NCBI RefSeq assembly: GCF_000012485.1
Contig: NC_007512.1
Location: 2,072,501 to 2,136,500, forward strand
Source of the DNA: Pelodictyon luteolum DSM 273
GTDB lineage: Bacteria > Bacteroidota > Chlorobiia > Chlorobiales > Chlorobiaceae
Length of the DNA stretch: 64,000 nucleotides
Reading direction: 5' to 3'
The notes under the pieces are model-generated. The model saw only the letters and a program-made list of their open reading frames with translations. It did not search any database and was not told the DNA's origin. Positions 7,411 through 24,183 of this stretch are shown here, one piece after another; position 1 is the stretch's first letter, and the number at the start of each line of letters is the position of its first letter. Both the position numbers and the translations under genes were made by a program.

Positions 7411-7428
7411 GAGGGCTGAATCAGGGCA

Positions 7429-8070
7429 TTAAACCCTAGGCTGACGAGAAAAGACAAAAAACCTATGATATGGGTTTTCTTGGACTCGATATGTTTTCTC
7501 GATAGAAAATTTTGAGCCCACTATTACTGAGAAGTCTTCAAGAATGCGACTCAACGCGTAATCTTTCTTATTAATCTCCCAGTAATGCTCACCATCAAAA
7601 ACATGCGGCTGAGGGGAGCGCCAGAAATACGGGATGTGATAAGTAAACTCGCCCCACCTAGGGACATGAAACCATAATCTATATACAGGTGATGCGTCCG
7701 GCAAGCTTATAACAACATTGTTCCTTGCAACTCGAACCATCTCCGAAAAGGCTATAAGGCTCGATTCGTAAGGCAAGTGCTCAAGCATTTGAAATGCGCA
7801 GACAACTGAATACGATTCATCCTCAAACGGCATAGCAAGAACAGAACCGATGTAGTCAGGATTGAGCTCCGGATCAATATCAAGTGTTTTGATATTAACC
7901 CCAAATGTTTCGGCCAACGCCTTAAACACCCCCGGCCCTGGGCCCAACTCCAATACTGTTTCGGGGTTATGTGCTAGTACTTCATCAAGTTGATGCCATA
8001 TTGAAAGCCACCTTTTTTTATGCACATACTTAGACCAATCATAATGTGCAGCATCAACTTGCTTATTCAT
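7429..8070 (-). CDS. Class I SAM-dependent methyltransferase
   Basis: 213 residues with a Methyltransf_11 Rossmann core. Motif I is VLELGPGPGVFKAL, the acidic end of beta-2 is KTLDIDPELNPDY, motif II is MPFEDESYSVVCAFQMLEHL, then VRVARNNVVISLPD. The first four bases overlap the last codon of the flippase gene, so the two are translationally coupled. Context points to methylation of a polysaccharide sugar or lipid-linked intermediate, but the substrate cannot be read from sequence. Confidence 0.85.
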   Translation of the reverse strand: MNKQVDAAHYDWSKYVHKKRWLSIWHQLDEVLAHNPETVLELGPGPGVFKALAETFGVNIKTLDIDPELNPDYIGSVLAMPFEDESYSVVCAFQMLEHLPYESSLIAFSEMVRVARNNVVISLPDASPVYRLWFHVPRWGEFTYHIPYFWRSPQPHVFDGEHYWEINKKDYALSRILEDFSVIVGSKFSIEKTYRVQENPYHRFFVFSRQPRV

Positions 8071-9377
8071 CGCTCTGTAAATAACTTTAAAGACTTCAAA
8101 TAAACCATAGCAATTAACATGATATATATCATAACCCCTGCAACCGAAAAGCCCACAACAGCATACAAATCGCTAGAATAAAAGTAATACCCCCACGCAA
8201 GGCCTAAGACTCTTAATAGAATACTGAGAACTTCAAACGCCAATAACATGCCCTGCATATGAAGAATAGGTATTGCAATCACAGCTGGCCGTGCAATAAA
8301 AAAAAAATAACTCATCAACGATAACCACTGCGCATACGCCCCTGCAACAACCCATTTATCGCCAAAAACAACTCCAAATATCCAAGGGCCAGCCAACACA
8401 ACAGTCCCAAAAGGGATTAAGCCGACACTTATCATTCCCTTTGTTGCCCGTATCAATAATTCCGATAAATCCTCAGCATTATTTTTTGCTTCTACAAGCC
8501 TTGGATACAATACATCTGTTACAGAGCTGCCTATCAATTGCGAAGGCAAGCCTAGCACTGATTTCCCAAGCGCATAGAACCCAGCTGCAGCGGGGCTGAA
8601 AAACGATGCAAGCATGAGAACCGGAAGCGACTGCGAAAAGGCATTAATAAAAACCTGTGGGGCGCGGTAGAGGGGGAAATCATAATACTGCCGAGCAAGC
8701 GCTTTTAGATGAGCTATATCAAACTGAAATACAGCAAATCTCTTCTCTCCTCCTGCTCCACGGATTCCTAGTCCCAGCAATGTACTGTACACAAGGCTAC
8801 TCAAAATGGCTCTTGCAATCAGAACCCCTGCTATGGGTTTATAGAGCCCAACTCCAACTGTCGCCGAATTCAAGAACAGCGTCTGAAGAATATTTGCCCT
8901 CGCGGTCAGCTTGAACTGTTTTTTTCTTATCACCCACTGACTATACACCTGCAACACTGCTCCAAAAAACACAGCTACTGGAACAAGGAGCAGATAATCA
9001 CGGATTGCCTCACCACCGCCAACAAGGGGCAGAAGCAGATCATCAGCGAGAATCAGAACAATTCCGATGATAAAGGAAATCACCAGCGCAATCAGAACTG
9101 ACAGTTGACCAATTCCACGCGCATCAGCGTCATCTTTAGGAAGTACAATGGCAATCGGATACATCAGTGCACCGACTGGTACTAAAATACCCGTAAAAGC
9201 CATAAACACCCCAAGTACTCCATACGCTTCCGGCCCGTACAAACGCGTAATGAAAGGAGCGAACAGCATCCCCAATGCCTGGGCCCCAGCTGTTCCACCT
9301 GCCACAACGGCAACATTTTTTACAAAACTGCTTTTCCTCAGACGATCTGTCACGCCAAGTACATCGGCGAATGTCAT
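8067..9377 (-). CDS. Polysaccharide flippase (Wzx-like, MOP superfamily)
   Basis: 436-residue integral membrane protein with about 12 hydrophobic segments, starting after a short basic cytoplasmic N-terminus (RKSSFVKNVAVVAGGTAGAQAL). The opening GGTAGAQALGMLFAPFITRLYGPEAYG is typical of O-antigen flippases, which carry undecaprenyl-linked repeat units across the inner membrane. It is the first gene of the minus-strand block 9.4-0 kb; the accessory island begins directly upstream. Family confidence is high, substrate unknown. Confidence 0.9.
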   Translation of the reverse strand: MTFADVLGVTDRLRKSSFVKNVAVVAGGTAGAQALGMLFAPFITRLYGPEAYGVLGVFMAFTGILVPVGALMYPIAIVLPKDDADARGIGQLSVLIALVISFIIGIVLILADDLLLPLVGGGEAIRDYLLLVPVAVFFGAVLQVYSQWVIRKKQFKLTARANILQTLFLNSATVGVGLYKPIAGVLIARAILSSLVYSTLLGLGIRGAGGEKRFAVFQFDIAHLKALARQYYDFPLYRAPQVFINAFSQSLPVLMLASFFSPAAAGFYALGKSVLGLPSQLIGSSVTDVLYPRLVEAKNNAEDLSELLIRATKGMISVGLIPFGTVVLAGPWIFGVVFGDKWVVAGAYAQWLSLMSYFFFIARPAVIAIPILHMQGMLLAFEVLSILLRVLGLAWGYYFYSSDLYAVVGFSVAGVMIYIMLIAMVYLKSLKLFTER

Positions 9378-9469
9378 TCTTATGGTCTCGTGATTACAAT
9401 CGTTCGAAAAAGAAATATATTATACGCATAAGACCATCCTTAAGTCCGCTAATGCACAGACTGACGTAT

Positions 9470-9574
9470 GAACAGCCGGGGTCCGAACAGCCGGGGTCCG
9501 AACAGCCGGGGTCCGAACAGCCGGGGTCCGAACAGCCGGGGTCCGAACAGCCGGGGTCCGAACAGCCGGGGTCC
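9470..9574. repeat. Seven perfect tandem copies of a 15-bp repeat
   Basis: Unit GAACAGCCGGGGTCC repeated seven times with no mismatch. A further copy of its core lies at about 9640-9653, and the reverse complement core at about 9723-9735. No spacers, so it is not CRISPR. It lies in the gap between the flippase start and a HicA-like gene. Perfect identity suggests recent expansion by slippage. Confidence 0.97.
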
Positions 9575-9758
9575 GGTGAAGCTTTCGTGATGCTGCATAC
9601 GGGGACGGACGGACTTAGGCTGTTCCCCTTACGTAAGTAACAGCCGGGGTCCGCTGGAACTATGGTGATGCTGCCTACGGGGTCCGATGGGGCTTAGGCG
9701 ATGCTGCATACAGGGACGGACGGACCCCGGCTGCTCTTTACGTCAACTACGGACTAAT
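9575..9758. repeat. Intergenic dispersed repeat, copy A
   Basis: Contains two rounds of GATGCTGCATAC/CTGCATACGGGGACGGACGGAC followed by GGCTGTTC- or GGCTGCTC-like sequence and TACGTCAACTAC. Related sequence occurs at 13834-13924 and 14795-14850, with a shorter resemblance near 11135-11160. No gene is seen in it. Confidence 0.7.
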
Positions 9759-10052
9759 TCACTCAAGACTTAAGCCACGATCAAACAAAACACGTTCATA
9801 TATTTTCTGATCCATAGTGCAGTCCACCAGTTCAAGAAATTCGGGAGTCGTCAATTTGCACTGCCTGGCCATAAAACTGAGCAGATCTCCGCCAATCGTT
9901 TTAGGTTTGCCCCCCAAACTCACCTTGGTTTTTACCAGGGTTTTCTTTCCGGCCAGCGAATAATAGTAGTAATACTTATGATCGGTAACGCGGCATGTAA
10001 ACCCTTTCCGTTCCAGCGCCCCTTCAATCTGCCTTTTTTCACGAACCGCCAT
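9759..10052 (-). CDS. Small HicA-like protein (possible toxin)
   Basis: 97 residues. The pattern ALERKGFTCRVTDHKYYYYY, basic KTLVKTKVSLGGKPK, then MARQCKLTTPEFLELVDC resembles small HicA/dsRBD-like proteins in which a conserved His sits in a beta strand; here that would be H24 in DHKYYYYY. The match is by eye and weak. It begins 9 bp after the stop of a 348-residue gene on the same strand, an arrangement like a two-gene toxin-antitoxin operon. An alternative is an RNA-binding accessory protein. Confidence 0.6.
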   Translation of the reverse strand: MAVREKRQIEGALERKGFTCRVTDHKYYYYYSLAGKKTLVKTKVSLGGKPKTIGGDLLSFMARQCKLTTPEFLELVDCTMDQKIYERVLFDRGLSLE

Positions 10053-10061
10053 GCTTACCAG

Positions 10062-11108
10062 TCACTCCTTTATGCGATCCCGCATCAAGCGTTTTACGTT
10101 TCGTGCGCCTTCGGTCAGCATCGCATCATCTTCCTTTCCGTACTCAATCCAATTTGCAACCACTTGCTCCTGCAATTCCGAAAGAAGCTGCTCTCGGGTG
10201 GCGGCAATGACCTCTATATTCCACTGTTCGTCAAGCAGCATAAGATACTGCGAGCTTTCCGTCAGCTCCGGGGAAAGCACTAAGGGAGGGTCGATCGAGA
10301 GTTTTCCTCCCGGGTACTCAACTTCCGATACTTCAAAATCAGACATATCCAAAGGCTCGATTGACTCCACATCATGGATTCGAACAGGCAAATCGCCAGC
10401 ATCAACAGAAACAGTGCCCGTAACTTGTACCAACCCTCTTCTTGCAGCTAACAACTCAGGCTCCCAATCAACATCGTAAACGCATTCAAGTTCTCGATTA
10501 TTCTCTGGATACAGTATGGTAATCCGTCGGCCTGCAAATTCCATTGCCTGAAGATAACCGGTAATCGTTTGGCTTACCCTTTCCTGATGACGAAGCCTCT
10601 CACGAATTGTATTGATCTTTCCCACATCAACGCCTGACAACGATACAACCGGCTGACCCGGGCCACTGATTGCAAGCTTCCATGGCTGTCCTGCCTTCGG
10701 AACAAGTGTCTGGAATGCATTAAGTAACCGTAGACGATAATGAGGGTTTCGTACCTTCAAAAAAGGCTGGTCTTCAGAATCATGCAGACCACGCAGACAA
10801 TCATGCAATGTCTCAATAACTGGCGTTACCTCCTCGATAGAACCAGCCTCAGTATAGCTGCCAACGGTCATTGGCAGTTGATAGCTACCGGCCGTTGGAA
10901 TCCAGCACCGCACCGGGAACATCTTCTGTATGGCTTTGGGAATGTAGCCTGAAGAAACCGACTGCTCATTCCGGGCATCCATCGCCAAAACAAAGACAGC
11001 CCTTTGAAATCCCTGAAGAGCTGCCGATAGAACTTCAGCATCAACCATCGGCTCATCGTGTGGGCCGGATATTCTTAACTCAAGTGAAGGAAGATTTCTC
11101 GGCATCAT
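10062..11108 (-). CDS. Uncharacterised protein, partner of the HicA-like gene
   Basis: 348 residues, family not recognised, no membrane helix or signal peptide. An N-terminal half (residues 1-140) is followed by a region of short beta-strands (GLVQVTGTVSVDAGDLPVRI). A C-terminal segment from about residue 275 (SSQYLMLLDEQWNIEVIAATREQL) loosely resembles small HicB/DUF2442-type folds, ending in a basic helix. It is upstream of, and closely spaced with, the 97-residue gene. Function unknown; the pairing suggests antitoxin or regulator plus effector. Confidence 0.7.
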   Translation of the reverse strand: MMPRNLPSLELRISGPHDEPMVDAEVLSAALQGFQRAVFVLAMDARNEQSVSSGYIPKAIQKMFPVRCWIPTAGSYQLPMTVGSYTEAGSIEEVTPVIETLHDCLRGLHDSEDQPFLKVRNPHYRLRLLNAFQTLVPKAGQPWKLAISGPGQPVVSLSGVDVGKINTIRERLRHQERVSQTITGYLQAMEFAGRRITILYPENNRELECVYDVDWEPELLAARRGLVQVTGTVSVDAGDLPVRIHDVESIEPLDMSDFEVSEVEYPGGKLSIDPPLVLSPELTESSQYLMLLDEQWNIEVIAATREQLLSELQEQVVANWIEYGKEDDAMLTEGARNVKRLMRDRIKE

Positions 11109-11160
11109 TCAGTATACCACGCGATTGTGTACCCGTTTCCCATTAGAACTGTTCACTACG

Positions 11161-11886
11161 TCAAGAGCAATGCTCTCGTTGCGTCGTACGCTCAAAGTCA
11201 CCCCTGTTCGGCTGAACCCCGAGACGGTTCCACCGGATTTCCCGCCGACGCCAGTGCTCTCCGATCGACTGCAGGAACCCGGGCTGCACCAGTTTGGCAC
11301 GAAGCTCAAGCCACCCGTTCCGTTCCTTCCTGATGACGAGCCCTTCGGGGCCCCCCGGACGGCAGGCGCTTTCGGCTTTGGCAAGCATGCCCTTCAGCTC
11401 CGCTATGGTAAAGTTTCCCTCAACAAGCTGAGGAACCGTTTCGATACCCATCCGATGGCAGAGTTCGTCGCGGCGGGCCGTGCTCATAAACGCCTGATGT
11501 TCGAGATCGTAGATATCAAACGCATTGAACCAGTCGGACAGGCGGCTGTACTCGAGACTGTGGCACGCGGCACACCACTCGCCGAAGAGCATGCAGTGCG
11601 GGGGAAGTACCCTGAACCCTTCCTGATGCAGGGCCATCCATGCATCGAGGCGTGTAAACTGTCCCCGGAAGGGGCGATGCAGATAGCTGCCCCGGTTCTG
11701 GACCCGTATCCCTTCCGGGCCATGGGAAAAACCGATGTTAGCACCATCAAGCTTCTCTTCGACAACAACCGGGCCATCAAGCATCGCTTGCGATTCGTCC
11801 TCAGAGAGCACCTTGTCGTCGCGCGGCTTTCCCTCCCCCAGCCATATCAGATGCGGCGTATGGGGAAAACGGAAAAAGGTGTTCAT
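11161..11886 (-). CDS. ATP-dependent RNA ligase family protein
   Basis: 241 residues, nucleotidyltransferase superfamily. Motif I EEKLDGANIGFS places the adenylated lysine at K45; motif III is FGEWCAACHS, motif IV GPEGLVIRKE, motif V ELRAKLV. These are the RNA-ligase core; there is no DNA-ligase OB domain of the usual size. It would reseal nicked RNA. The start ATG overlaps the stop of the upstream PIN-domain gene by four bases (11883-11886), so the two are translationally coupled. RNA cleavage plus RNA ligation in one operon suggests damage and repair of the same RNA. Confidence 0.85.
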   Translation of the reverse strand: MNTFFRFPHTPHLIWLGEGKPRDDKVLSEDESQAMLDGPVVVEEKLDGANIGFSHGPEGIRVQNRGSYLHRPFRGQFTRLDAWMALHQEGFRVLPPHCMLFGEWCAACHSLEYSRLSDWFNAFDIYDLEHQAFMSTARRDELCHRMGIETVPQLVEGNFTIAELKGMLAKAESACRPGGPEGLVIRKERNGWLELRAKLVQPGFLQSIGEHWRRREIRWNRLGVQPNRGDFERTTQREHCS

Positions 11887-12428
11887 CGTTGCTTCCGCTC
11901 TTTCTTTGCTTTCTTATCTTCGTATTTGGCCCGACTCCACACTTCAATCACTGCCTCCAACTCTACACCCCTCGCCTCAAGCGTATCCTGCCAGCCGTGC
12001 CAGTCGCTGTCAGCGGCAAATGCGATGGCACAAGAACTTGTGAGGGCATAAGCTTCAAGTGCGACAGCAACCATTTTCCTGTCCGCACGGTCATGCACGA
12101 CCCGCTGCAGCTCTTCGTCAAGTATGGCGTATCCATCACTATCACAGGAGATATCAACCATATCACAGCATGCGGTATCAAGTTTCTCCAGATAGACCAG
12201 CATGCCGAAATCCCCATGGCAAAGATGGCGGCGATACTCCTCCTCAATCATCCAGGTACTGTCGATGACCATCCTTGATGAAGAACGCCTGAAGTCTTCG
12301 AGCCACTGCCATACCCGCTGACGTAAGGCTGGATCGTCGGGCATCGCGCACACAGCCGTCAATGAGGAAAGATTCAAAGAACTTGCTGCAATAAAGACGT
12401 TGGTGTCGATTACATAGCGGGCTTTCAT
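11883..12428 (-). CDS. PIN-domain ribonuclease-like protein
   Basis: 181 residues. N-terminal RYVIDTNVFIAAS puts the first metal-binding Asp at residue 8. Later acidic positions are MVIDSTWMIEEEY, VVHDRADRKMVAVALEA and AADSDWHGW, consistent with a complete PIN active site. PIN proteins cut single-stranded RNA or tRNA. Its ATG overlaps the original stop of the ATPase gene (12425-12428) and its own stop overlaps the RNA ligase start, so the three genes form one coupled operon. The C-terminus is very basic (KYEDKKAKKERKQR). Confidence 0.82.
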   Translation of the reverse strand: MKARYVIDTNVFIAASSLNLSSLTAVCAMPDDPALRQRVWQWLEDFRRSSSRMVIDSTWMIEEEYRRHLCHGDFGMLVYLEKLDTACCDMVDISCDSDGYAILDEELQRVVHDRADRKMVAVALEAYALTSSCAIAFAADSDWHGWQDTLEARGVELEAVIEVWSRAKYEDKKAKKERKQR

Positions 12429-12517
12429 TGCACAGAACGCTCTTGCTTTTGCCGTTCAAAAAGCAGACGCGCCTGCTCACGGGCATCACCGAGAGCATCC
12501 CCAAAAAAGTGTTCGGG

Positions 12518-13744
12518 TCAGTGGCCGATACGCCCATAACCATCTAGCTCAAGGTGCACCAGTTCGGCATCAGCTCCTTTTCTTTCCACGAAATAGAGCC
12601 GGCAATCATTCTCTCTGGCAACTTGCCGAGCCACCATGGTCTGCAGGCGCCTGAACAGATGCTCGGAATGGGTTTCAACAAGAAACTGGATCTGCCGTTG
12701 CTGGCTGACTTCGACAAAGAGCTCTGATAGCACTGCCTGCGCAAGCGGGTGCAGATGGATCTCCGGCTCTTCAAGGATGATGGTCGATCCCTTAGGAACA
12801 AAGAATGCCAGAGTCACCACTGGCAGGACCTGCGATACACCGATGCCAACATCGCGGAGATTTGCATCGACGCCGTCCCTATGGACAACAATCTCGTAGC
12901 GGGTTGAGCGGCCAAGCTGGCGGACTTCGATACTATCGGCGACTCCCATCCTGTTCAGCCAGTGGGACACGCTTTCGATAATAGCTCCCTTCCCCTCATC
13001 CTTTGCGGGAGCCAGAGCACTGGATAGCAGCACATCGACAACCCGGCTGCCATCGATACCGATATCGCCCGGCATGGTACCGTTCCAGACATAGTCGCGC
13101 TCGGGCTTTCGACGTAAAGGTCCCAGATAGGTAATCGATTCAATCTGGCGACGAATGGCAAGGCTGATGTCCTCGGCTTTCTTCCCATCAACACCCAGAA
13201 GTGAAACAGCTTCGGGAGAAAGCGCTATGGAACGTTGGGGCGCATAGAGTCGGCTTTTCCCCCTCGGCTGCGGCTCCTGTCCAACAAACGCCGAATAGGC
13301 ACCACGATCTCGACGCACCAGACGGAATAAAACATCCTCTCCCGAAATGCTCATCTCCTGCACCACCGCAGCTTTCAGGGAGGTTTTCCCGTAGCTTGCG
13401 CTGAATGCACCATTCTGCACCCATGCGGCAGGACTCTCTTGCCTGTCAACATTGCCGTTTTTATGAAACTCGAAACCAATATCGAATCGGTTCGACGAAG
13501 CATTACGGCTCATCACATCATCGAAATGGCCGAAATTGAAATAATCGCTCACCTCATTGCCGCCGAGGTTAAGATGGACTGTCCTGTCCGGCGAAACCAC
13601 AGTCTGCTTGAGCAGGAGCAGAGCCTGGAAAATCGACGATTTGCCAGAGGAGTTGGTACCAAGAAAAACGGTAAGCGGCTTCAGCTCTATACTGATGCTC
13701 TGGCGCCATGCCTTGAAATGCTTCAATCTCAAGAGATCAAACAC
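12518..13744 (-). CDS. AAA ATPase, DUF3696 family, cut short by a TGA codon
   Basis: 408 residues of an SMC/RecF-like ATPase: Walker A LGTNSSGKSS at residues 28-37, signature-like DVGIGVSQVLPV, Walker B TIILEEPEIHLHP, switch His in FLVETHSEHLFRRL. The frame stops at TGA (12518-12520) after GRIGH. The same frame stays open for 30 more codons, PEHFFGDALGDAREQ to QERSVQ, and ends at a TGA overlapping the PIN gene ATG by four bases. W-P-E-x-F-F-G-D is the expected DUF3696 C-terminus, so a TGG Trp codon has become TGA. The intact gene would be 12425-13744 (439 residues). Confidence 0.88.
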   Translation of the reverse strand: MFDLLRLKHFKAWRQSISIELKPLTVFLGTNSSGKSSIFQALLLLKQTVVSPDRTVHLNLGGNEVSDYFNFGHFDDVMSRNASSNRFDIGFEFHKNGNVDRQESPAAWVQNGAFSASYGKTSLKAAVVQEMSISGEDVLFRLVRRDRGAYSAFVGQEPQPRGKSRLYAPQRSIALSPEAVSLLGVDGKKAEDISLAIRRQIESITYLGPLRRKPERDYVWNGTMPGDIGIDGSRVVDVLLSSALAPAKDEGKGAIIESVSHWLNRMGVADSIEVRQLGRSTRYEIVVHRDGVDANLRDVGIGVSQVLPVVTLAFFVPKGSTIILEEPEIHLHPLAQAVLSELFVEVSQQRQIQFLVETHSEHLFRRLQTMVARQVARENDCRLYFVERKGADAELVHLELDGYGRIGH

Positions 13745-13833: not shown

Positions 13834-13924
13834 GATGCTAGATACTGGGGCTGACTTAGGCTGTTCACTACCTCAAGAACGGACTACGGCTGTTCGTACA
13901 TCAACTACAGTGGTTCCTTACGCC
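13834..13924. repeat. Intergenic dispersed repeat, copy B
   Basis: Carries GATGCTAGATACTGGGGCTGACTTAGGCTGTTC, split here as GATGCTAGATACTGGGGC plus TTAGGCTGTTC, then CGGCTGTTCGTACATCAAC. Alignable with copies A and C. Lies between the ATPase start and the VapC remnant. Confidence 0.6.
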
Positions 13925-14627: not shown

Positions 14628-14794
14628 GCTTGCTTTAATTGATTGATGATCTTCTGTTATGCGTTCCGCAAAAAGTACCACATTGACCTCGAGACCCTTC
14701 ATCCTGTATCCAGGAAAGCAGGCCAAGTAATTGGAAGAATCAACCCTTCCGAACCATATCGAGTTCCTCAAGCGACACATTCGGCTTGAATGAT

Positions 14795-14850
14795 GCGGCA
14801 TACGGGGACGGACTCCGGCTATTCGTACATCAACTACGGCTGTTCCTGAC
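14795..14850. repeat. Intergenic dispersed repeat, copy C
   Basis: GATGCGGCATACGGGGACGG, then ACTCCGGCTATTCGTACATC and AACTACGGCTGTTCC. Closest to copy B in its second half and to copy A in its first half. Confidence 0.65.
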
Positions 14851-15089
14851 ATTGCATCACGGCTTCGCCGCATTCAGTCACAGTGGATGGTGGGTTGCCC
14901 TTATGAACGCTCTCTTCACGGCAGGGAGTGGGAGTATGGCATCCGGCTGAGCAGAGCGGGTCACTTCCCCTCCCTGGCCGGGTGAAGTGTAATATAGGAA
15001 ATCCAATGGTAGTAAGTATGCTGAAAGAGTACAGATAGGTGTTTTGTTTTAGGCGAGGAACAGCCAGAAGACCCCTCCATTGCTACCTT

Positions 15090-15339
15090 CAAAGCCGAAA
15101 GCACACTGGTGTCAAGAATGATCGTTCAACATCATCCTCACGCTACCTGCATCAACCCTGGTCACCGTCTGCGGCAGGCTCGCTTCCCGGAGCAGCTGAG
15201 CGATTTTCAGGATCCCCCTCCCCCAGGCCTCAATGAGGCCCCGACGGTAAAAGGCGGTGGCAATGAGCGGGTTCCAGGACTTCGACTCATGCGGCTGCAG
15301 GAGCTTTTCGAGGCAGTCTGACCGAAATGAAAGATCCAA
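15090..15339 (-). pseudogene. AlbA_2/ATP-binding regulator fragment joined to a FitB stub
   Basis: Residues such as SWNPLIATAFYRRGLIEAWGRG are the C-terminal part of AlbA_2-type putative transcriptional regulators (NPLIA...GLIE.WGRG). It then runs into LLREASLPQTVTRVDAGSV, which is repeated almost identically at 16475-16560. At 15090-15129 the sequence switches to a near-identical copy of the FitA end/FitB start at 15740-15779 (DTSVLSAL), then degenerates. The N-terminus is missing. This is the wreck of a second AlbA-FitAB locus with FitA deleted. Confidence 0.65.
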
Positions 15340-15349
15340 TTGAAGGAGA

Positions 15350-15769
15350 TCAACACTCCCACGGGTTGACTACTGCGACACTCAAGTCGCTGAAGTGGCG
15401 GATATTTCGTGTAGCAATCGTAGCACTATTGGCCAAAGCAATGCCTGCAATAAAGGTATCACGCATATCTATAGGCCGACCGGCTTCTTTTCGTTCAGCC
15501 GCCAACAGGGCTGCCGCTTTAGCAGCATCGGCATCAAAGAGAAGGATGCGGTGCTGCATTTCATCACTCAATAGCTCTTCAAATCGATTTTCCAGCAAGC
15601 TTTTTCGCTGGCCCGATGGTAAGAGAGCCAAACCATATCGGGCTTCAAACAGGGTAATGCTAGAGAGCCAGATTGATTCAGAGGGCTGACTGTCCACCCA
15701 TTTCACAACCTTCGGGTCGGGCTGCTGCTGCATCAAAGCCGAAAGCACATTGGTGTCAAGAATGATCAT
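15350..15769 (-). CDS. FitB/VapC-type PIN-domain toxin
   Basis: 139 residues, complete. MIILDTNVLSALMQ gives the first active-site Asp at residue 4; the middle Glu is in SSITLFEARYGLALL; the late acidic pair is IDMRDTFIAGIA, followed by TIATRNIRHF and the typical VVNPWE ending of FitB proteins. PIN toxins of this group cleave RNA and are held inactive by FitA on operator DNA. The ATG overlaps the FitA stop by four bases. No defect is seen. Confidence 0.92.
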   Translation of the reverse strand: MIILDTNVLSALMQQQPDPKVVKWVDSQPSESIWLSSITLFEARYGLALLPSGQRKSLLENRFEELLSDEMQHRILLFDADAAKAAALLAAERKEAGRPIDMRDTFIAGIALANSATIATRNIRHFSDLSVAVVNPWEC

Positions 15770-16005
15770 TCAACAAAGCCCATTGGCTCAATTGTCTGAC
15801 CGTGCAGTTCCGGAAGTGGTCCCTGCAAACCAACACCTGCAAAACGGGCAGCAATCCTAGAGCCAAGCATTTGGCGTTTTGGTGAAGTTTCAGTGACCGC
15901 ACTGCGCAATATCTGGTATACTTCCTCCTCAAGGCTACGGCCATGCTGGCTGGCGCGGACTGCAAGACGGATTTTCAAATCCTCTTCAATATTGCGGATA
16001 ATCAT
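15766..16005 (-). CDS. FitA-like ribbon-helix-helix antitoxin
   Basis: 79 residues. N-terminal RHH fold: IIRNIEEDLKIRLAVRASQHGRSLEEEVYQILRSAV, shown here only for its key parts (IIRNI beta strand, GRSLEEEVYQIL helix). The C-terminal part (GPLPELHGQTIEPMGFVE) would block the toxin active site. It would bind its own promoter, in the gap 16006-16155, as a FitAB complex. Paired with FitB through an ATGA overlap. Confidence 0.9.
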   Translation of the reverse strand: MIIRNIEEDLKIRLAVRASQHGRSLEEEVYQILRSAVTETSPKRQMLGSRIAARFAGVGLQGPLPELHGQTIEPMGFVE

Positions 16006-16155
16006 AGCTACAATAGTCTTTTCTTTAGGTTACGATATGTACTGAAACAAACCGTATTGAAGGAAATATTCGTTCACATATGCCGGCATTATGCAAAAGG
16101 GTTCATGATTGCCCCCTCAACTCATCAATTTATACCGCTCTTCGGACAGCGTGTA

Positions 16156-16566
16156 CTATAAGACACCAGAGAGCAGGATGCTCTCCCAAACAGCCGAGAG
16201 AGATGTATTTTCAGGGAAAGAACAGCCGCGTTCAACGGACAGAGAAGCTCTCGAGAGGACATGGAACCCGCCGGTTTTCGGTGCACCGCGAAACTCGATC
16301 AATCCCACAGCCCTGAGTTTACCGAGCCTTCTGGTCGCGGTCCTGATGCTGATCCCGAGAACCGCTGCCAGCGTTTTGGCAATGATGCCGGGGTGCTGAC
16401 TGATAGCGGTCAGCAGCTCATTTACTCCACCATTTACTCCCTCATGCCGGTCTGGAAAGGCAAAAGTCACCATCACGCTACCTGCATCAACCCTGGTCAC
16501 CGTCTGCGGCAGGCTCGCCTCGCGAAGCAGCCAGGCGATTTTCAGCCGATCGTCGTAGAGCGTCAA
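16156..16566 (-). pseudogene. C-terminal remnant of an AlbA_2-type regulator
   Basis: The reading frame contains LLREASLPQTVTRVDAGSVM, VTFAFPDRHEGVNGGVNELL and a winged-helix segment (HPGIIAKTLAAVLGISIRTATRRLGKLRAVGLIEF, key parts ISQHPGI and RTATRRLGKL). These are the C-terminal HTH of AlbA_2/ATP-binding regulators. The ATP-binding and AlbA parts are absent. The sequence upstream (16567-16690) reads QKKELVFQDVVGNETAFVTG in another frame, which I do not recognise. Confidence 0.65.
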
Positions 16567-16691
16567 ACCATATCGTGGTCACCTTTCCGGTAACGAAAGC
16601 GGTTTCGTTACCAACGACGTCCTGAAACACCAACTCCTTTTTTTGTGTCAGTTGTGACTCATACCACCATAAACCCCAACAGCAGTGCATC

Positions 16692-17532
16692 TCAAAGCTC
16701 TATCTGAAAACGGGGTGCGAACAATAGCCCGCTCACACGCGCCGACACCATGCCTTCAACCCGCAAGACGCGGTGCGCATCCTTCTCTATGTCATGGACA
16801 TGCAGGAGCACCTTGCCCGCCCTGCTGCGCCGCAGCGAATAGGGTTCGACCAGCCGCCGGCTGAGGGTCCCGTTCAGGGCCCGGTAGTCGATTTCGACGC
16901 ACATGCGGGGCATGCTGTCGATAGAGATGGATGACGTCATAGAGGTCGCGCGGCCGGGTCCGATCCCCCAGCGCCCGGACTTTTTCACCGAAAACCTCGG
17001 CATAGGAGTATGCCAGCACACGGATACCCTCTCGAGGCATATCGCTGTATGGATGCAGAACCGGCATCCGCTGAGGCTCCTCGACCACGCACTCGTCTGC
17101 ACTCAAGTCAATCTTGATGCGTGGAAGGTTTTTCCCGGTCGGAGAAATCGGGCCCCGATAGGAGAGTTTTCCCTGGCAGACAAGTTTGCCTCGTGGATTC
17201 CTGTACAGCTCGATAGACTGCATGGCCTCAGGAAATTCGATACCGGTCTCATCATAGATCCAGCGCCCGAGTGAGGCCAGGATTTTCCGAAGAAAGCCTT
17301 CATCAAGATGCGCCGGATCAAGCAGCGTGAAATCGAGATCCTCTGAAAACCGATAGGTCTCGAACAGGCATTTCTTCAGGCAGGTCCCCCCTTTGAACAC
17401 CCAGGAATCCGCAACCTCTTCCTGACTGGCAAGTCCGGCAAGCACCCAGCCAAGAACATAGTCCTTCTCGACAACATGAGGCGAGAGCGATACGCGTGAG
17501 GCCATATCAAGGAGTTCCGCACGTCCGATCAT
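16692..17532 (-). pseudogene. AbiEii-type nucleotidyltransferase toxin, deleted and frameshifted
   Basis: The first ~225 residues are a good AbiEii/AbiGii (DUF1814) toxin: VEKDYVLGWVLAG, motif I WVFKGGTCLKK, motif II RFSEDLDFTLL, KIDLSADE, RPRDLYDVIHLYR. Then the frame turns into a Pro/Arg-rich tail ending at 16792. The next frame, from MPRMCVEIDYRALNG through RRLVEPYSLRRSRAGKV to LFAPRFQIEL (stop near 16692), is the WYL-like C-terminal domain such proteins carry. The segment between is missing. So there is an internal deletion with a frameshift at about 16910; the toxin is probably dead. Confidence 0.75.
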
Positions 17533-18347
17533 CGCTCGCCCCTCTTCAGCCAGTGCTCCGGAACACGGAGGCGCCAGCGGCTGACGACCTTGGGACAGGG
17601 CGCTCCCGGGTCGAGCCTAGCGAGACCCTGCGTCATGCGCAGATGGGCTTCACGCGGCAACTGGCCGGCAAGAGGGTTGCCCTCAAGCAGGAATCCGAGC
17701 CGTTTGAAAACAGCTCCGTTGCCCAGGCGCAGGGCGTACTCCAGCAAGGCTCCGTCATCACGGTCCGGATGAGCGAGATAGGACTGCAGACAATCTGCGA
17801 CATGCTGCACCCCGCCGCCAATCTCCGGCAGGGCGAGCATATCGACAATGGTACGCGGCACATCAGAGACCATGACGCGGGTACGGTGCCGCCAGACCGG
17901 TCGCAGTCCGAACAGGTGGCCTTCAGGAACATGCGTCAGCAAAAACCGGGCTCCATGAGCACTCAGCTCTTTCCTGCCGACCCGCCTTGCGCTCAGCACG
18001 ACAATGTCGGTGAAAATCTGCTCGGTCAGGTCCCAATGCTCGGCGGCAGTCCGACCACCGATATAGGCCGGAGCGAACAGTTCGGGAACAAGAACCCATG
18101 GATCGTCAAGAACCTGCGCCTTGCCGAGCGACTCCAGCGGCACCGGAACATACCGGCCGGGACCCACCCGGCTAAGCCAGCCCTGCTCCCTCCATCGCGA
18201 CAACTGCTGCACCGCGGCCTTTCGCGACATCCCCAGAACAGCGACGGCGTCATCGATGGCAATAACATCACCGCCTGCCGCAACCAATCTGGCCAGCAAA
18301 GCCTTCTTTCCCTTCGGAACGGCTGATAGAGAAGCCTGTACCATCAT
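17529..18347 (-). CDS. AbiEi-type antitoxin (first copy)
   Basis: 272 residues. N-terminal winged helix (GGDVIAIDDAVAVLGMSRKAAVQQLSRW; key parts LGMSRKAAVQQL and WLSRVGPGRYVPVPL), then the AbiEi C-terminal domain with VPELFAPAYIGGRTAAEHW and VSDVPRTIVDMLALPE. AbiEi represses its own promoter and counters the AbiEii nucleotidyltransferase. It overlaps the toxin start by four bases. Complete, unlike its toxin. Confidence 0.88.
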   Translation of the reverse strand: MMVQASLSAVPKGKKALLARLVAAGGDVIAIDDAVAVLGMSRKAAVQQLSRWREQGWLSRVGPGRYVPVPLESLGKAQVLDDPWVLVPELFAPAYIGGRTAAEHWDLTEQIFTDIVVLSARRVGRKELSAHGARFLLTHVPEGHLFGLRPVWRHRTRVMVSDVPRTIVDMLALPEIGGGVQHVADCLQSYLAHPDRDDGALLEYALRLGNGAVFKRLGFLLEGNPLAGQLPREAHLRMTQGLARLDPGAPCPKVVSRWRLRVPEHWLKRGER

Positions 18348-18371
18348 CGGACAAAAACCTGGTGTACGTAT

Positions 18372-18653
18372 TCATCGACCACTTACATACACCAAGATAC
18401 AATAAAAACGCAAATAATGCGATTTTTTAGTCCCAGAGTATACTGGGCAGAGAATCACATCGGATAGATCGGAAGCCGGGTCTGGCCATGCACGGAACCA
18501 CTCGGGCAGGGTGGGTTTTACCCCCTCATTTACTCCGCCATTGAGGAGCCAGGCAAGGACATAGTCCCGCTCGATGACACTCTCAAGAATGCGCCGCCCT
18601 CCAGTGCGCATAAGTCCGTTTGCTACGAGGGAGATGTTGCGTTGCGGGATCAT
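18372..18653 (-). pseudogene. AbiEii toxin remnant, N-terminus only (second copy)
   Basis: The first ~37 residues (MIPQRNISLVANGLMRTGG, SVIERDYVLAWLL) match the AbiEii start. After that the frame runs into unrelated sequence that includes GGVNEGVK, echoing the AlbA remnant at 16440. No GGT or SED motif is left. The ATG overlaps the stop of the antitoxin gene by four bases, as in an intact locus. Confidence 0.75.
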
Positions 18654-19468
18654 CAGCTGCTCCTCACCATGTCAAGCTCTTCCTCACTCACATTCAACTG
18701 CAGCCTCCATCGCGCCAACGAAGATCCCTCTTGAGGAAGCAGCGGATCAAGGCGCTGATAGGTATCGGTGAGGCTCTCACGCAAAGGCTGCAACACATCC
18801 TCTTCAGCCATTCCGTAGTATTCAAGCAGGTAACCGAGCCGGCGGACAACCGCCCCGACATCCAGCTGAAGAGCGTACTGTACAAGCTGGCTGCTGTTGA
18901 TTGCCTCCCTGCGCATCCACATGGCCTTGGCCACTTCGGTGATACCGCCCGAGAAATCGGGGCGGCGGAGGCAGTCAACAATGGTGCGTTCCCTATCGCT
19001 CACGATGACGAATCGTTCCTTGTCGACCCAATACTTCATGACACCGAAGAACTGTTCTGGACGCAACTGCACAAATCGGAAATCATAGCCACCGACCGCT
19101 TTGACACGAAGGCGCCGCGTACAGGAAACGGTGATGGTAAGGCTCGGCTGTGTCACCATGCGATGCAACTCCATCGCACTGCCATGCGAGATGAAGTAGG
19201 GAGCCTCACCGGCCAGCTCGCGCGCAATGATGTATGGACTGTCGACATGTTCGGTTGCCCGGCCGAGCTCAAAGGGCACCAGGCAGAAGAGCCCGGGCTT
19301 GAGTCGCGTCACAACGCCCCGCTGCTGTGCTTTGTGCACCAGACTTCGTGAAGCTGAAGCGCTAAGGCCGGTGATAGCGGCTACATCACCCAATGTGAAT
19401 GTAGGCCGCTGCCGTTCATGCAATCCGGTGAGAAGTTGAGCAACCCGGGGCCCGAGAGTTTTGGCCAT
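18653..19468 (-). CDS. AbiEi-type antitoxin (second copy)
   Basis: 271 residues, same family as 17529-18347 but clearly diverged. Winged helix LGDVAAITGLSASASRSLVHK, with VTRLKPGLFCLVPFELG; C-terminal domain with SPYIIARELAGEAPYFISHGSAMELH, REQ-type FRFVQLRPEQFF and VSDRERTIVDCLRRPD. Ends with an ATGA overlap to a toxin of which only the first ~37 codons remain. Complete antitoxin without a functional toxin. Confidence 0.88.
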   Translation of the reverse strand: MAKTLGPRVAQLLTGLHERQRPTFTLGDVAAITGLSASASRSLVHKAQQRGVVTRLKPGLFCLVPFELGRATEHVDSPYIIARELAGEAPYFISHGSAMELHRMVTQPSLTITVSCTRRLRVKAVGGYDFRFVQLRPEQFFGVMKYWVDKERFVIVSDRERTIVDCLRRPDFSGGITEVAKAMWMRREAINSSQLVQYALQLDVGAVVRRLGYLLEYYGMAEEDVLQPLRESLTDTYQRLDPLLPQEGSSLARWRLQLNVSEEELDMVRSS

Positions 19469-19932
19469 TACATGATATTTTTTGGTCTATTCGTTACCCA
19501 TAAAGGAACGAAACCACCAAAAAATATCAATATCCGCAATACATGTTGTTTATGTGCGCAGCCGTTCTTGCCGACGGTGGCGGAAGTATCAAGAGGCTTT
19601 CCTGACGCTATGGATGGTCCGTGGCAGGATTCCTTATGCGCTTTCTGCAGCTCGTCAGAAAAAACCGCACTCATAAGCGGCAATGATATCGAGCACCTCC
19701 GCATAAAACATATCCCGCACGGAATCAGTGCGTCCCAACTTCAGTACCTTCCGGTATTCCCTGGTTTTTTTACGGAGTATGCCAGCCAGTCGTCATAGAG
19801 CGCTATAGCGACCACGCCGGCAGCGAGCATGGTCGACAATGCGAGACCCGACTGCAACAAGGCACCGATATCCAACAAATACCTATATTGCCCCTACGAA
19901 CACCGTACTTCCAGAGAAAAAAACGCGCCTGC
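19469..19932. other. Gap with a short membrane-like remnant
   Basis: No convincing gene. On the minus strand, about 19757-19893, a 45-codon open stretch reads LLQSGLALSTMLAAGVVAIA then YDDWLAYSVKK and stops; it looks like the C-terminus of a lost membrane protein. The longer open frames here have no family-like features. This gap holds the promoter of the recombinase gene. Confidence 0.4.
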
Positions 19933-21882
19933 ATGCAGAAAAGCGACGAGACACGCCAACGGTTCCTGGAGCTGATCGAACGGCTCGACGGGGCCTATGC
20001 ACCCAATACCATCCGGGCATACCGTGCCGATATGGAGGAGTTCATCGGGTACTGTGACCTGCACGGCCTCCCTGCCCTTCCGGCCGAGCCCTCAACCATC
20101 GCCCGGTTTCTGGAGAGTGTCACCGACATCGGCATCAAGAGCAGCTCCATCAGAAGAAAATCCTGCTCGATCAGCATCATCCACCAGCTCAGCGACCTTG
20201 AAGACCCGACGAAGAGTGAGGCGGTGAAGATCGCCCTGCGGAAAGTCTACCGAAAACTCGGGCGGCGGTTCACAGAAGCCCGGCCCATCACCCGCCCCAT
20301 GCTTGAAGCGATGCTTCCGGAGCCGGAGGGCGACCTTCGCTCGAAACGCGACCGCGCCCTGCTCCTCATCGCCTATGACAGCCTGCGACGCCGTCAGGAG
20401 CTCACCAGCCTCCGCACGGAAGACATCGCCTATCATGAGGACTTCGCCATCGTGCAGCTCCGTAAAAACAAAGACGACCGCCTCTCTACCGGCCACTGGA
20501 TCCGACTCGGAAACGAGGCCACCCTTGCCCTGAAAGCATGGCTGGATGCTGCCGGAATCGAGGAGGGCTACATCATCCGCGGCGTTACGAACAAGGGAGA
20601 GATAAGCGCGGAGCTCGGCGCTCGCCAGATAGGCCGCATCGTCAACCGCCTTGCCCGTGCCGCCGGGTTCGACGCGGAGATGGTGCAATCAATCAGCAGC
20701 AACTCCCTCCGCATCGGCGGCGCCCAGGACCTGCTCCGCAGCGGAGCGACATTCGCCCAGATCATGCAGAAAGGCGGCTGGGATAAAACCGACACCCTCC
20801 TGCGCTATCTGGAACGGACCCGCCAGCCTGGCATGATCTGCGAAGAGGGCTCGCCATACAGGACGGCAGCGGGCGGAGAGGAAGACATTGGGGACGAAGC
20901 AGACAACGGGGAGAAGTGTTCATGCCCCGGATACCGGGACACTCTTGCACGCCGGCGGTTCCAGTCGACGCTTGAGCAGATGGAAGGGGCGTACGCTCCC
21001 GGCACCCTCGTCGGCTACCACTCCGGCATGGAGTCGTTCATCCGCTACTGTGAAGAACACCGCCTGGCGGCCCTTCCCGCCTCGCCGATGACGGTCGCGG
21101 ACTTTATCGGGAGCCTTTCGGAAAGCGGCATGAAAAGCCGCACCATCCAGAAGAAAGTCGAAGCCATCAGCGTCTTCCACCGGCTCGGCGACCACGACGA
21201 TCCCACCAGAGCCTCATATACGCGCATCGCCATGCGGAAAGTCTACCGCAAGCTCGGCCGTCAGGCCCGGCAGGCATACGGCATCACCCGTCCCATGCTG
21301 GAAGGGATGATGCAGGCTGCCGGAGACAGAGGCATACACACCCTCTGCGACCGGGCCCTGCTTCTTCTGGCGTACGACAGCCTGCGCCGCCGTCAGGAAC
21401 TTGTAGGACTCAGGATAGAGGATCTTGAGTACACGGAGGACGGCGCAGTCCTGCTGCTCCGCAAAAGCAAGACGGACCAGTACGGCGTCGGCCACTGGAT
21501 CCACCTCAACCCCGAAACCGCTTGTACCCTGAAGGCGTGGATTGAGGCCGCAGGCCTTACGGAGGGGTTCATTCTCCGCACCATCGACCGGAAAGGCGAA
21601 ATCAAAACACCACTCCGCACCGAAGAGATCTCGGCGATCTATAAACGGCTGGCCGAAGCGGCCGGTCTGGATGCCGCCATCGTCGGCCGCATCAGCAGCC
21701 ACTCCATGCGGGTAGGGGCCGCCCAGGACATGCTCAATAGCGGCGCAACCCTTACCGAGATCATGCAGAAAGGGGGATGGATGAAATCCGATACCGTCAT
21801 GCGCTATATCGACCGTACCCGCCCTCCGGGGCTTGTCTGCGAGGACGAAGAAACAAAGCCCCGATGTGGAGAGGATGACTGA
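19933..21882 (+). CDS. Tandem-fused double tyrosine recombinase
   Basis: 649 residues from the ATG at 19933 (an upstream TTG at 19888 would add 15). Two full-length phage-integrase-type units in one frame: residues ~5-300 and ~335-632, joined by an acidic linker with a CSCPGY motif. Each has a SAM-like N-terminal domain (AYAPNTIRAYRADMEEFI / AYAPGTLVGYHSGMESFI) and a catalytic domain. Unit 2 has the whole active site: R486 (SLRRRQEL), K511/K513, H590-x-x-R593 (SSHSMRVG), W616, Y625. Unit 1 has R153, K178/K180, R260, W283, Y292 but Asn257 where the box-II His should be (SSNSLRIG). It is the only plus-strand gene between 0 and 30 kb. Confidence 0.9.
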   Translation: MQKSDETRQRFLELIERLDGAYAPNTIRAYRADMEEFIGYCDLHGLPALPAEPSTIARFLESVTDIGIKSSSIRRKSCSISIIHQLSDLEDPTKSEAVKIALRKVYRKLGRRFTEARPITRPMLEAMLPEPEGDLRSKRDRALLLIAYDSLRRRQELTSLRTEDIAYHEDFAIVQLRKNKDDRLSTGHWIRLGNEATLALKAWLDAAGIEEGYIIRGVTNKGEISAELGARQIGRIVNRLARAAGFDAEMVQSISSNSLRIGGAQDLLRSGATFAQIMQKGGWDKTDTLLRYLERTRQPGMICEEGSPYRTAAGGEEDIGDEADNGEKCSCPGYRDTLARRRFQSTLEQMEGAYAPGTLVGYHSGMESFIRYCEEHRLAALPASPMTVADFIGSLSESGMKSRTIQKKVEAISVFHRLGDHDDPTRASYTRIAMRKVYRKLGRQARQAYGITRPMLEGMMQAAGDRGIHTLCDRALLLLAYDSLRRRQELVGLRIEDLEYTEDGAVLLLRKSKTDQYGVGHWIHLNPETACTLKAWIEAAGLTEGFILRTIDRKGEIKTPLRTEEISAIYKRLAEAAGLDAAIVGRISSHSMRVGAAQDMLNSGATLTEIMQKGGWMKSDTVMRYIDRTRPPGLVCEDEETKPRCGEDD

Positions 21883-21912: not shown

Positions 21913-23010
21913 TCAGCGGGACGCCCCGCCCCCGTCCTCCACAACAGGCATCCTTGAGAGCGCAGCGTGCATGACCCCGTAAACCAGAAATATACCGAGC
22001 ACAGAAACCATCAGCACTCCTGTATCGCCGTAGAAAAAGGTTGCCGGAACAGCAAAACAAAACGCAAGCACCCAGCAGAACGGAGAGACCGCACCGTTGC
22101 GCAGACTGGGTTTCGGGCGGCTGAGGTAGCGCCGCACGATTTTGAGCTTCACGAGGCTGTGCAGATGGTTGGTGTCCGGCTGGCCGGGATGGCTGCGGGT
22201 CCATATGCGCCGGAACATGCTGAAGAGGGTCTCTATGAGAGGGTACGAGCATACCACGATGGGCGCCCATGGGGAGACTGACGGGTTGCGGGCAGGCAGC
22301 ATGACGGCCGTCCAGGCGAGCAGGAACCCCATGAGGTATGCCCCGCCGTCCCCCATGAAGATCTTGCCGAAGGGGAAGTTGAGAAACATGAACCCTGCAA
22401 CGCAGAGGATAAAGAGAATACAGAGCTTGGCCAGATGCGTGTCGCCCACCTGCCAGGCGATGGCGGCGAGCATGCCGAAGCAGATCATGAGTACACCTCC
22501 GGCAAGGCCGTTGAACCCGTCGATGATGTTGATGGAGTTAGCCACCCCGCCGACGGCAAAAGCGGTGAAGGCAACGGTGAAGGGCATCCATTGAAGCAGA
22601 ACATCGAACCCCGGCACATCGACCCGCGTCAGGCTGTAGCCGGTCAGGTACCACGCGGCCACACCGCTCAGCATGGTCGCCAGAAGCCTGTCCCTCACGC
22701 CGACCCGTTTGGTGAGGTCTTCAATGAAGCCCGCCACGAATGCCGGCAATGCGGCTATGAGCATGAGCCCGAGAAGCAGCCCGCTGCCTGCTGGAAGCAG
22801 GAGCCAGGCAACAAACAGTGCGGCAAAAATGGCAAGCCCGCCAATACGGGGGGTTGGGGCTGTATGGAACTTCTGCACCCCGTCCGATGAATCATGCGTA
22901 TGCTTGCCGTGCCAGCGCCCCGTGAGGACGATGAGCACCGACATGGCGGTACTCGTCAGTCCGACGAGCGCCGCCGTCGAGGGTTCGACAAGCTGAAGTT
23001 GCTGAGGCAT
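21913..23010 (-). CDS. Undecaprenyl-phosphate sugar-1-phosphate transferase (WecA/MraY family), copy 1
   Basis: 365 residues from ATG 23010 (the frame extends 18 codons upstream without family features). About ten membrane helices. Seen: KFHTAPTPRIGGLAIF (family N-terminal motif), SINIIDGFNGLAGGV (Asp-containing metal/nucleotide site), FPFGKIFMGDGGAYLMGF, and the cytoplasmic loop HPGQPDTNHLHSLVKLKIVRR with its His-rich motif. Starts lipid-linked repeat-unit synthesis on undecaprenyl phosphate. Paralogue of 24577-25665. Confidence 0.92.
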   Translation of the reverse strand: MPQQLQLVEPSTAALVGLTSTAMSVLIVLTGRWHGKHTHDSSDGVQKFHTAPTPRIGGLAIFAALFVAWLLLPAGSGLLLGLMLIAALPAFVAGFIEDLTKRVGVRDRLLATMLSGVAAWYLTGYSLTRVDVPGFDVLLQWMPFTVAFTAFAVGGVANSINIIDGFNGLAGGVLMICFGMLAAIAWQVGDTHLAKLCILFILCVAGFMFLNFPFGKIFMGDGGAYLMGFLLAWTAVMLPARNPSVSPWAPIVVCSYPLIETLFSMFRRIWTRSHPGQPDTNHLHSLVKLKIVRRYLSRPKPSLRNGAVSPFCWVLAFCFAVPATFFYGDTGVLMVSVLGIFLVYGVMHAALSRMPVVEDGGGASR

Positions 23011-23064
23011 TAAATGCTGGCGGTTGGGATGGTGGCGTGTTGGAAAAGAAATGAAAAGGAACAA

Positions 23065-24183
23065 TCACTGCCAGCCGAGGGACTCCCTGAGCTGCCTCAG
23101 CTTCGACTGCTGCTCGCTGTCAGCAGCGGCGTTCTTCAATGCTTCAACAACAAAGGCCCAGAGCACGGCGAGAAACCCTGCTGCGAGGGCCGCGATGAGA
23201 ACAATCTTCGAGCGCTGGGGCTTTGAGGGGTCCAGCGGCACATCAGCCCTGTTGAGCACCTGCACCCTCGGTGCCTCACGCTGTTCAGCGACTTTTGCGA
23301 GCTCGATCTGGCGACGCAGGGCGTCAAGCCGGGTCTCAGCGTATTTGAGGGCGCCGACGGCGCGGATATATGCCTGTTCTTTACTTGAAACCCGACTGAT
23401 GAACGCCGGGTTGTTCTCGACGGCGGCAAGCTCTTCCCAGAGGGCGTTCAGCTGCTGGCGGGGAAGGCCGTCCTGAAAGGTGCCTGCATCGATATTGCCG
23501 ATGACCACCAGTTCAACCTCTTTCATCGCAATGCGGGCCTTGAGCTCGGACGCAGCTTTGACGAGAGAGGCAACGTTCCCGCCCATCGAGCCTGATTTCG
23601 CACCCGCCTGCACCTCCTGCATGGCCGAACCAGCTTCTTCCAGCGTCCTTTCGGCATCGGGCAGCTGCTTTTCAAGAAGCATGCGCCGCTCTGCAGCAGG
23701 AGTCAGGATGAACTGGCTGGTCAGCTTCTGAAGCATCCCGGGATAGGCGTTGGCAAGAGCCGCAGCCCTTTCGGGGTTGCTGTCATCAACATCCAGCGTG
23801 ATCGACCCGTCTTTTTCAAGCTTGACACTGGTGGCCTCCGTAATCACCGCTCTTGCATCACGCAGGCTCGTAACGCCGTAAGCCTTCTGAAGATCAAACC
23901 GTGCAACGAGACTGTCGCCCATCGGCTGGCTCTCGATGAGAGAAACAAATATGTTCTTGTCCTCGCCCCGTGGCAGCAATGTAGTTGTAGCGGTATACGT
24001 GACCGGCATAAACAGGGTCACCGCAGCGACAATGACGGCCACGGCAATCGGCAGGCCGAGAATGAGCTTTTTGTGCTTTGCGAGGGTTATGGCGAGGTCA
24101 AGGAGACTGATTTCATCGTCGTAGGGATCGGGGCGCTGAAATTGGGGATTACCAGTGGACAATGGAGCATCATGCATGTGCAA
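23065..24183 (-). CDS. Wzz-type chain-length determinant, copy 2
   Basis: 372 residues. N-terminal cytoplasmic part DDEISLLDLAITLAKHKKL, first membrane helix about 40-60 (AVAVIVAAVTLFMP), large periplasmic domain with coiled-coil (ERTLEEAGSAMQEV), and a second helix near the C-terminus in QRSKIVLIAALAAGFLAVLW. No tyrosine-kinase domain. Sets polysaccharide length together with the polymerase. The C-terminal membrane block is nearly identical to that of the other Wzz (27062-28093), indicating duplication. Confidence 0.9.
   Translation of the reverse strand: MHMHDAPLSTGNPQFQRPDPYDDEISLLDLAITLAKHKKLILGLPIAVAVIVAAVTLFMPVTYTATTTLLPRGEDKNIFVSLIESQPMGDSLVARFDLQKAYGVTSLRDARAVITEATSVKLEKDGSITLDVDDSNPERAAALANAYPGMLQKLTSQFILTPAAERRMLLEKQLPDAERTLEEAGSAMQEVQAGAKSGSMGGNVASLVKAASELKARIAMKEVELVVIGNIDAGTFQDGLPRQQLNALWEELAAVENNPAFISRVSSKEQAYIRAVGALKYAETRLDALRRQIELAKVAEQREAPRVQVLNRADVPLDPSKPQRSKIVLIAALAAGFLAVLWAFVVEALKNAAADSEQQSKLRQLRESLGWQ

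Follow-up and report, generated by a model that had tools for sequence, protein, structure and literature searches.

What is to be made of a single gene that encodes two tyrosine recombinases, only one of which retains the usual box-II histidine? The question is raised by a locus of Pelodictyon luteolum DSM 273, found in a window of 64,000 bases (the whole stretch of DNA analysed here), which corresponds to positions 2072501–2136500 of the complete 2,364,842-base genome. It touches upon a long-standing one: tyrosine recombinases work as tetramers, and how the active pair of subunits is chosen has been debated for a long time. The architecture of the gene, its occurrence in relatives, its likeness to known recombinases and its genomic surroundings are considered in turn, along with the possible roles of the pair.

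Architecture and catalytic residues

The gene is located on the forward strand, at 19933–21882: a single unbroken frame of 649 codons runs from an ATG at 19933 to a stop codon ending at 21882, and encodes a protein of 649 aa. The frame could also start at a TTG at 19888. Pfam recognizes two domains twice each in the product, a catalytic one (PF00589, E 3e-33) and an N-terminal SAM-like one (PF02899, E 2e-13). Alignment and structural model indicate that unit 1 (19933–20844, residues 1 to about 304) and unit 2 (20947–21882, residues 339–649) both contain an N-terminal and a catalytic domain. They are separated by a variable linker (20845–20946, residues 305–338), recognized from the alignment of relatives and as the part where the model has its lowest confidence. 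The two units are 53% identical across 300 residues (E 6e-116), far above what may be expected by chance. The single frame, the doubled domains and the alignment between units all bear out the first-pass annotation, which had described two whole tyrosine recombinases in one gene.

The catalytic residues were located by alignment with P1 Cre. At the positions of Cre R173, E176, K201, H289, R292, W315 and Y324, unit 2 features R, E, K, H, R, W and Y, while unit 1 features R, E, K, N, R, W and Y. In unit 1, Asn257 occupies the position of the box-II histidine and Tyr292 is retained; in unit 2, His590, Arg593 and Tyr625 are present. Both units contain the triplet GGW, whose Trp falls at the second-His position (Cre W315). 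The catalytic set of the tyrosine recombinase superfamily is therefore complete in unit 2, and complete in unit 1 but for the replacement of His by Asn. These are the residues that had been read from the sequence at first. It had also been claimed that the replacement leaves unit 1 with a weakened site: the Asn is indeed there, but the weakening is uncertain, because several H289 substitutions are tolerated by Cre.

Occurrence, origin and constraint

Of the 86 genomes of the family, three contain a full double: the window genome, C. phaeovibrioides BrKhr17, where the protein is 96% identical to that of the window, and Chlorobium sp. N1 (G087), where identity is 60%. The two units were never found as separate genes in the same 86 genomes. 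A wider search, covering 394 genomes sampled across the phylum Bacteroidota and short-pattern scans of genome contigs, revealed no further doubles, and no relatives were found in viral contigs. A 700-aa frame from another genome (G147) was considered as a candidate and rejected: it contains a single recombinase behind another domain. The presence of the double in three independent genomes rules out a lost stop codon or a fusion produced by assembly. Neither of the two simpler situations envisaged by the first-pass annotation, a gene unique to one assembly or units encoded separately in close relatives, was thus encountered.

The asymmetry between the two active sites is just as regular. In each of the three doubles, unit 1 features Asn and unit 2 features His; His is also present in each of the 20 other recombinases compared, i.e. 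18 single-unit relatives and two distant ones from the window genome. The linker, in contrast to the units, is not conserved, as its aligned length is about 34 residues in the window genome and BrKhr17, and about 10 in N1.

Identity reaches 62% between unit 1 sequences and 58–60% between unit 2 sequences, and is 50–55% when the two units are compared with each other. Unit 1 of the window genome, in particular, is 62% identical to unit 1 of N1, versus 52–53% to its own unit 2. In the phylogenetic tree, unit 1 sequences (support 99/96) and unit 2 sequences (97/92) form distinct groups within one clade (100/100). Since each unit 1 is nearer to the other unit 1 than to its own unit 2, and the two kinds are separated in the tree, the sequences indicate a single duplication and fusion, older than the split between the lineages. 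The dN/dS ratios, calculated against BrKhr17, are 0.17 for unit 1 and 0.19 for unit 2; against N1, they are 0.38 and 0.31, respectively. Being low in each unit, they indicate that both are maintained under similar purifying selection.

Two incomplete forms were also found. Genome G060, whose core gene is 99% identical to that of the window genome, features only a remnant of the recombinase. In the metagenome-assembled genome bin.97 (G185), the start of a 5488-base contig (C17) carries the N-terminus of unit 1 in frame with the beginning of the catalytic domain of unit 2, the switch being located at a run shared by the two. This chimera may reflect a genuine deletion, and suggests that a single unit may suffice there, which speaks against the heterodimeric reading given below; it may also be an assembly artefact, as the locus runs off the contig end.

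Relation to known recombinases

The solved structures nearest to the double are those of Cre, as found both by sequence search and by fold comparison, the latter made with a model of low confidence (pLDDT 65, pTM 0.32), which is uninformative on the packing of the two units. With Cre as its closest match, and a Trp at the W315 position, the double belongs to the Cre type. The first-pass annotation had contrasted it with ordinary XerC/D and integrases: the comparison is better drawn with Cre-type enzymes. P1 Cre and D6 Dre, the best matches by sequence and structure, are similar to the double in fold and in the catalytic set of unit 2. They are, however, made of one unit of about 340 aa and act on near-palindromic sites, whereas the double is composed of two diverged, fused units, one of them with Asn in place of His289, and no near-palindromic, lox-type site was found beside its gene in the three genomes. 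The closest natural relatives found are Cre-like recombinases from plasmids of Methylobacterium, Roseomonas and Pseudosulfitobacter (about 36% identity); they differ from the double in being single units of about 300–350 aa, all with His.

XerC and XerD are related recombinases, which pair as a heterodimer, recognize an asymmetric site and exchange strands in a set order. They are two separate proteins, while the double is one chain, scoring well under the NCBIfam equivalog cut-offs (109 bits versus 329.6 for TIGR02225, 93.6 versus 335 for TIGR02224). The tree places two further tyrosine recombinases of the window genome at a great distance from the Cre-like clade. Some likeness exists with GInt islands (ginABCD), where several tyrosine recombinases act jointly at the edge of a cargo island; there, three putative integrases are encoded by separate genes, along with a small fourth protein, and are not fused (PMC5385486), whereas here a single fused gene is found, with no adjacent recombinase on either side.

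The double may also be compared to RecF8, an engineered heterodimer derived from Cre, which likewise links two Cre-type monomers, each with alterations of its own in helix J. RecF8 was made by man for one asymmetric target, and no box-II asymmetry is described in the available part of its report (PMC8776779); the Chlorobium double, in contrast, arose by duplication. No paper on natural fused tyrosine recombinases was found in the literature searched.

The shared block and the search for a target site

The double is located at the right end of a block (14833–21851), whose counterpart in BrKhr17 (G028) is found at positions 5752–12765 of the segment C54:8000–27000. Over these 7 kb, the two genomes are 97.7% identical, while a core gene is only about 74% identical and the flanking DNA shows no similarity. 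Because of this difference, the block is judged, from sequence comparison, to have been recently transferred between species. In BrKhr17 it is inserted between polysaccharide genes, at a polysaccharide locus different from that of the window. No clean empty site for the BrKhr17 insertion was found; a few other genomes contain relatives of the flanking genes about 2 kb apart.

The block carries, on the reverse strand, a VapBC-like pair (15350–16005), composed of a PIN toxin (15350–15769) and a FitA-like ribbon-helix-helix antitoxin (15766–16005), and a group of AbiE genes (16792–19468), composed of AbiEii (16792–17532), AbiEi (17529–18347) and a second AbiEi (18653–19468). The first AbiEii, of 246 aa, is matched by the PADLOC model PDLC02317 over positions 1–209 of 396 only; in the second system, the toxin position is occupied by a 93-aa ORF (18372–18653) with no Pfam match. 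Their sequences suggest that the AbiE systems are decaying. On the right side, a WecA-like glycosyl transferase gene (PF00953) and a Wzz-like gene (21913–24183, reverse strand) are convergent with the recombinase, so that its position at the edge of an island, next to a polysaccharide operon, is as first described. In all four genomes where the flank is assembled (window genome, N1, BrKhr17 and G060), a WecA-like gene adjoins the recombinase, or its remnant, or is located within 2 kb of it.

A pair of half-sites was looked for near the gene and none was found. No lox-like palindrome was detected near the gene in the three genomes, and no upstream motif is conserved between the window genome and N1 above the level of shuffled sequences. 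The two ends of the block do not share an att core: the longest string common to both is at shuffle level, at variance with a Campbell-type phage or island integrase. Absence of a local site is to be expected if the site is asymmetric, and equally if there is no local site. One pair of 23-bp inverted repeats, separated by an 11-bp gap (19473–19529), was considered and rejected as a recombinase site. AbiEi operators are inverted repeats of this kind, and the pair adjoins the start of the AbiEi gene at 18653–19468: it is therefore probably an AbiE operator.

Helix J, proposed mode of action and alternatives

Helix J is the main DNA-reading helix of Cre. Its sequence is LGARQIGRIV in unit 1 and LRTEEISAIY in unit 2; in the alignment of the three doubles with P1 Cre, the position of R259 is occupied by Arg in unit 1 and by Glu or Asp in unit 2. 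In RecF8, the two fused monomers were altered at R259, E262 and E266 so that each reads a half-site of its own, and their linkage restricts activity to the asymmetric site (PMC8776779). As to the box-II position, Cre H289A is competent for recombination, with about four-fold slower formation of presynaptic complexes (PMC4381057), while Flp H305 mutants are able to cleave, but do not complete recombination. In natural groups the histidine may also be replaced, as by Tyr in IntDes, or less well conserved, as in IntBPP-1 (PMC8138268).

By analogy with RecF8 and Cre H289A, the explanation favoured here, to which an even chance may be assigned, is that the double is a natural single-chain, heterodimeric Cre-type recombinase, acting on an asymmetric site, where the Asn-containing unit would change the order or the rate of strand exchange. 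Tandem duplication and fusion would have been followed by divergence of helix J between the units. Because of this divergence, a single polypeptide would be predicted to occupy one asymmetric core site, with unit 1 on one arm and unit 2 on the other, and the usual synapse of four subunits would be assembled from two polypeptides. Each unit would probably cut, since the Tyr nucleophile and both arginines are kept in each. The Asn of unit 1 might determine which pair of strands is exchanged first, or slow down cleavage or ligation by that unit. The most likely cellular substrate would be DNA of the toxin-antitoxin and defence island, whose right end is the recombinase itself. Action in a fixed order, as proposed by the first-pass annotation, finds analogical support in the tendency of Cre H289A to begin strand exchange in reverse order, reported in PMC4381057, citing Gelato 2005; it counts against the analogy that it concerns Ala in Cre, and Asn in the Chlorobium double.

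The fusion might, alternatively, be incidental, with one resolvase or integrase made of two Cre-like units that are interchangeable, act on the same symmetric site and are linked through tandem duplication only. This would fit with the 53% identity still shared by the units, with plasmid relatives occurring as single units, with an unconserved linker length and with the tolerance of Cre to H289 substitutions. Yet helix J and box-II residues differ consistently between the units, down to 60% identity, and three genomes retain the double form, under equal constraint on its units: an accidental fusion is unlikely, although still worth considering. Loss of the histidine in unit 1 only, and the behaviour of the Flp mutants, might rather point to a unit 1 mainly serving as a DNA-binding or architectural arm, with unit 2 performing most of the chemistry in a single exchange, and the Holliday junction being finished by replication or repair. 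In a non-catalytic arm, however, drift would be expected to affect R, K, R, W and Y, which unit 1 retains with a low dN/dS, and Cre H289A still recombines; such a division of labour is rather improbable.

The constant proximity of the WecA-like gene in the four genomes might suggest an invertase, responsible for phase variation of the adjoining polysaccharide operon. No convincing promoter-flanking inverted repeats are found in 19470–42100, though, and the BrKhr17 block, which has toxin-antitoxin genes as its cargo, is located in another polysaccharide locus, so that this role appears very improbable. It is scarcely likely that the double is a relic left by a lost mobile element and now decaying, with the Asn as first sign of decay: while G060 only features a remnant, and the double is confined to one clade, full-length frames are found in three genomes, dN/dS is low in both units and the identical Asn is present in two lineages.

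The double architecture is confirmed, and the heterodimeric mechanism is plausible in the light of sequence and analogy. A linked pair of recombinases, similar to those constructed for genome editing, seems to have arisen naturally in a small group of green sulfur bacteria, as a counterpart of engineered forms such as RecF8. The natural linkers, of about 34 and about 10 residues, offer evolved substitutes for artificial linkers, and a covalently joined pair, in which one active site carries a fixed change, provides a ready-made test for the role of box II in strand order.

A dispersed repeat as candidate recombination site

The block ends on its left in a dispersed palindromic repeat (14784–14850), with core GAACAGCCGNNGTCCG, which was considered as a candidate recombination site. 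In the window, the same family also features an array of seven 15-bp tandem units and inverted copies (9470–9743) and degenerate copies between defence-gene modules (13851–13921); elsewhere in the genome, copies are located at positions 615452, 1082877, 1854666, 2015733 and 2017861. The family includes tandem arrays and palindromic units of about 100 bp, several of which adjoin toxin-antitoxin modules. No Rfam match was found in the window at gathering thresholds, and a gapped inverted-pair pattern of the repeat gave zero matches, as the copies vary.

The left end of the block falls within the repeat in the window genome, in BrKhr17 and in bin.97, in three different contexts, and a second difference between the window genome and G060 begins at a repeat unit. 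Toxin-antitoxin genes (PIN/IrrE, HipA, RES, DarT) are found at other copies. The five genomes that contain the gene, or what remains of it, all feature the repeat; the other 60 genomes of the genus gave one single match, located within a gene. The double might accordingly move toxin-antitoxin and defence modules as cassettes among Chlorobium genomes, at GAACAGCCGNNGTCCG repeats, as in an integron, but with a Cre-type enzyme. Such a role seems improbable. The association of gene and repeat is confounded by ancestry, because the five genomes belong to one clade of six, whose remaining member lacks both. In addition, the right end of the block has no repeat, simple tandem arrays are found in conserved loci, and homologous recombination at the repeats would look alike.

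Two other sets of genes were observed in the course of this comparison. Between repeat copies of the window, at 11161–13744, a gene with an RNA-ligase domain is located by genes matching the PADLOC candidate system HEC-03 (A, B). G060 (C24, 3594–10800) and G185 (C92) share another block, with HipA, RES and DarT/macro-domain genes, at about 97.7% identity, although a core protein of the window genome, a genome near-identical to G060, is only 62% identical to its G185 counterpart.
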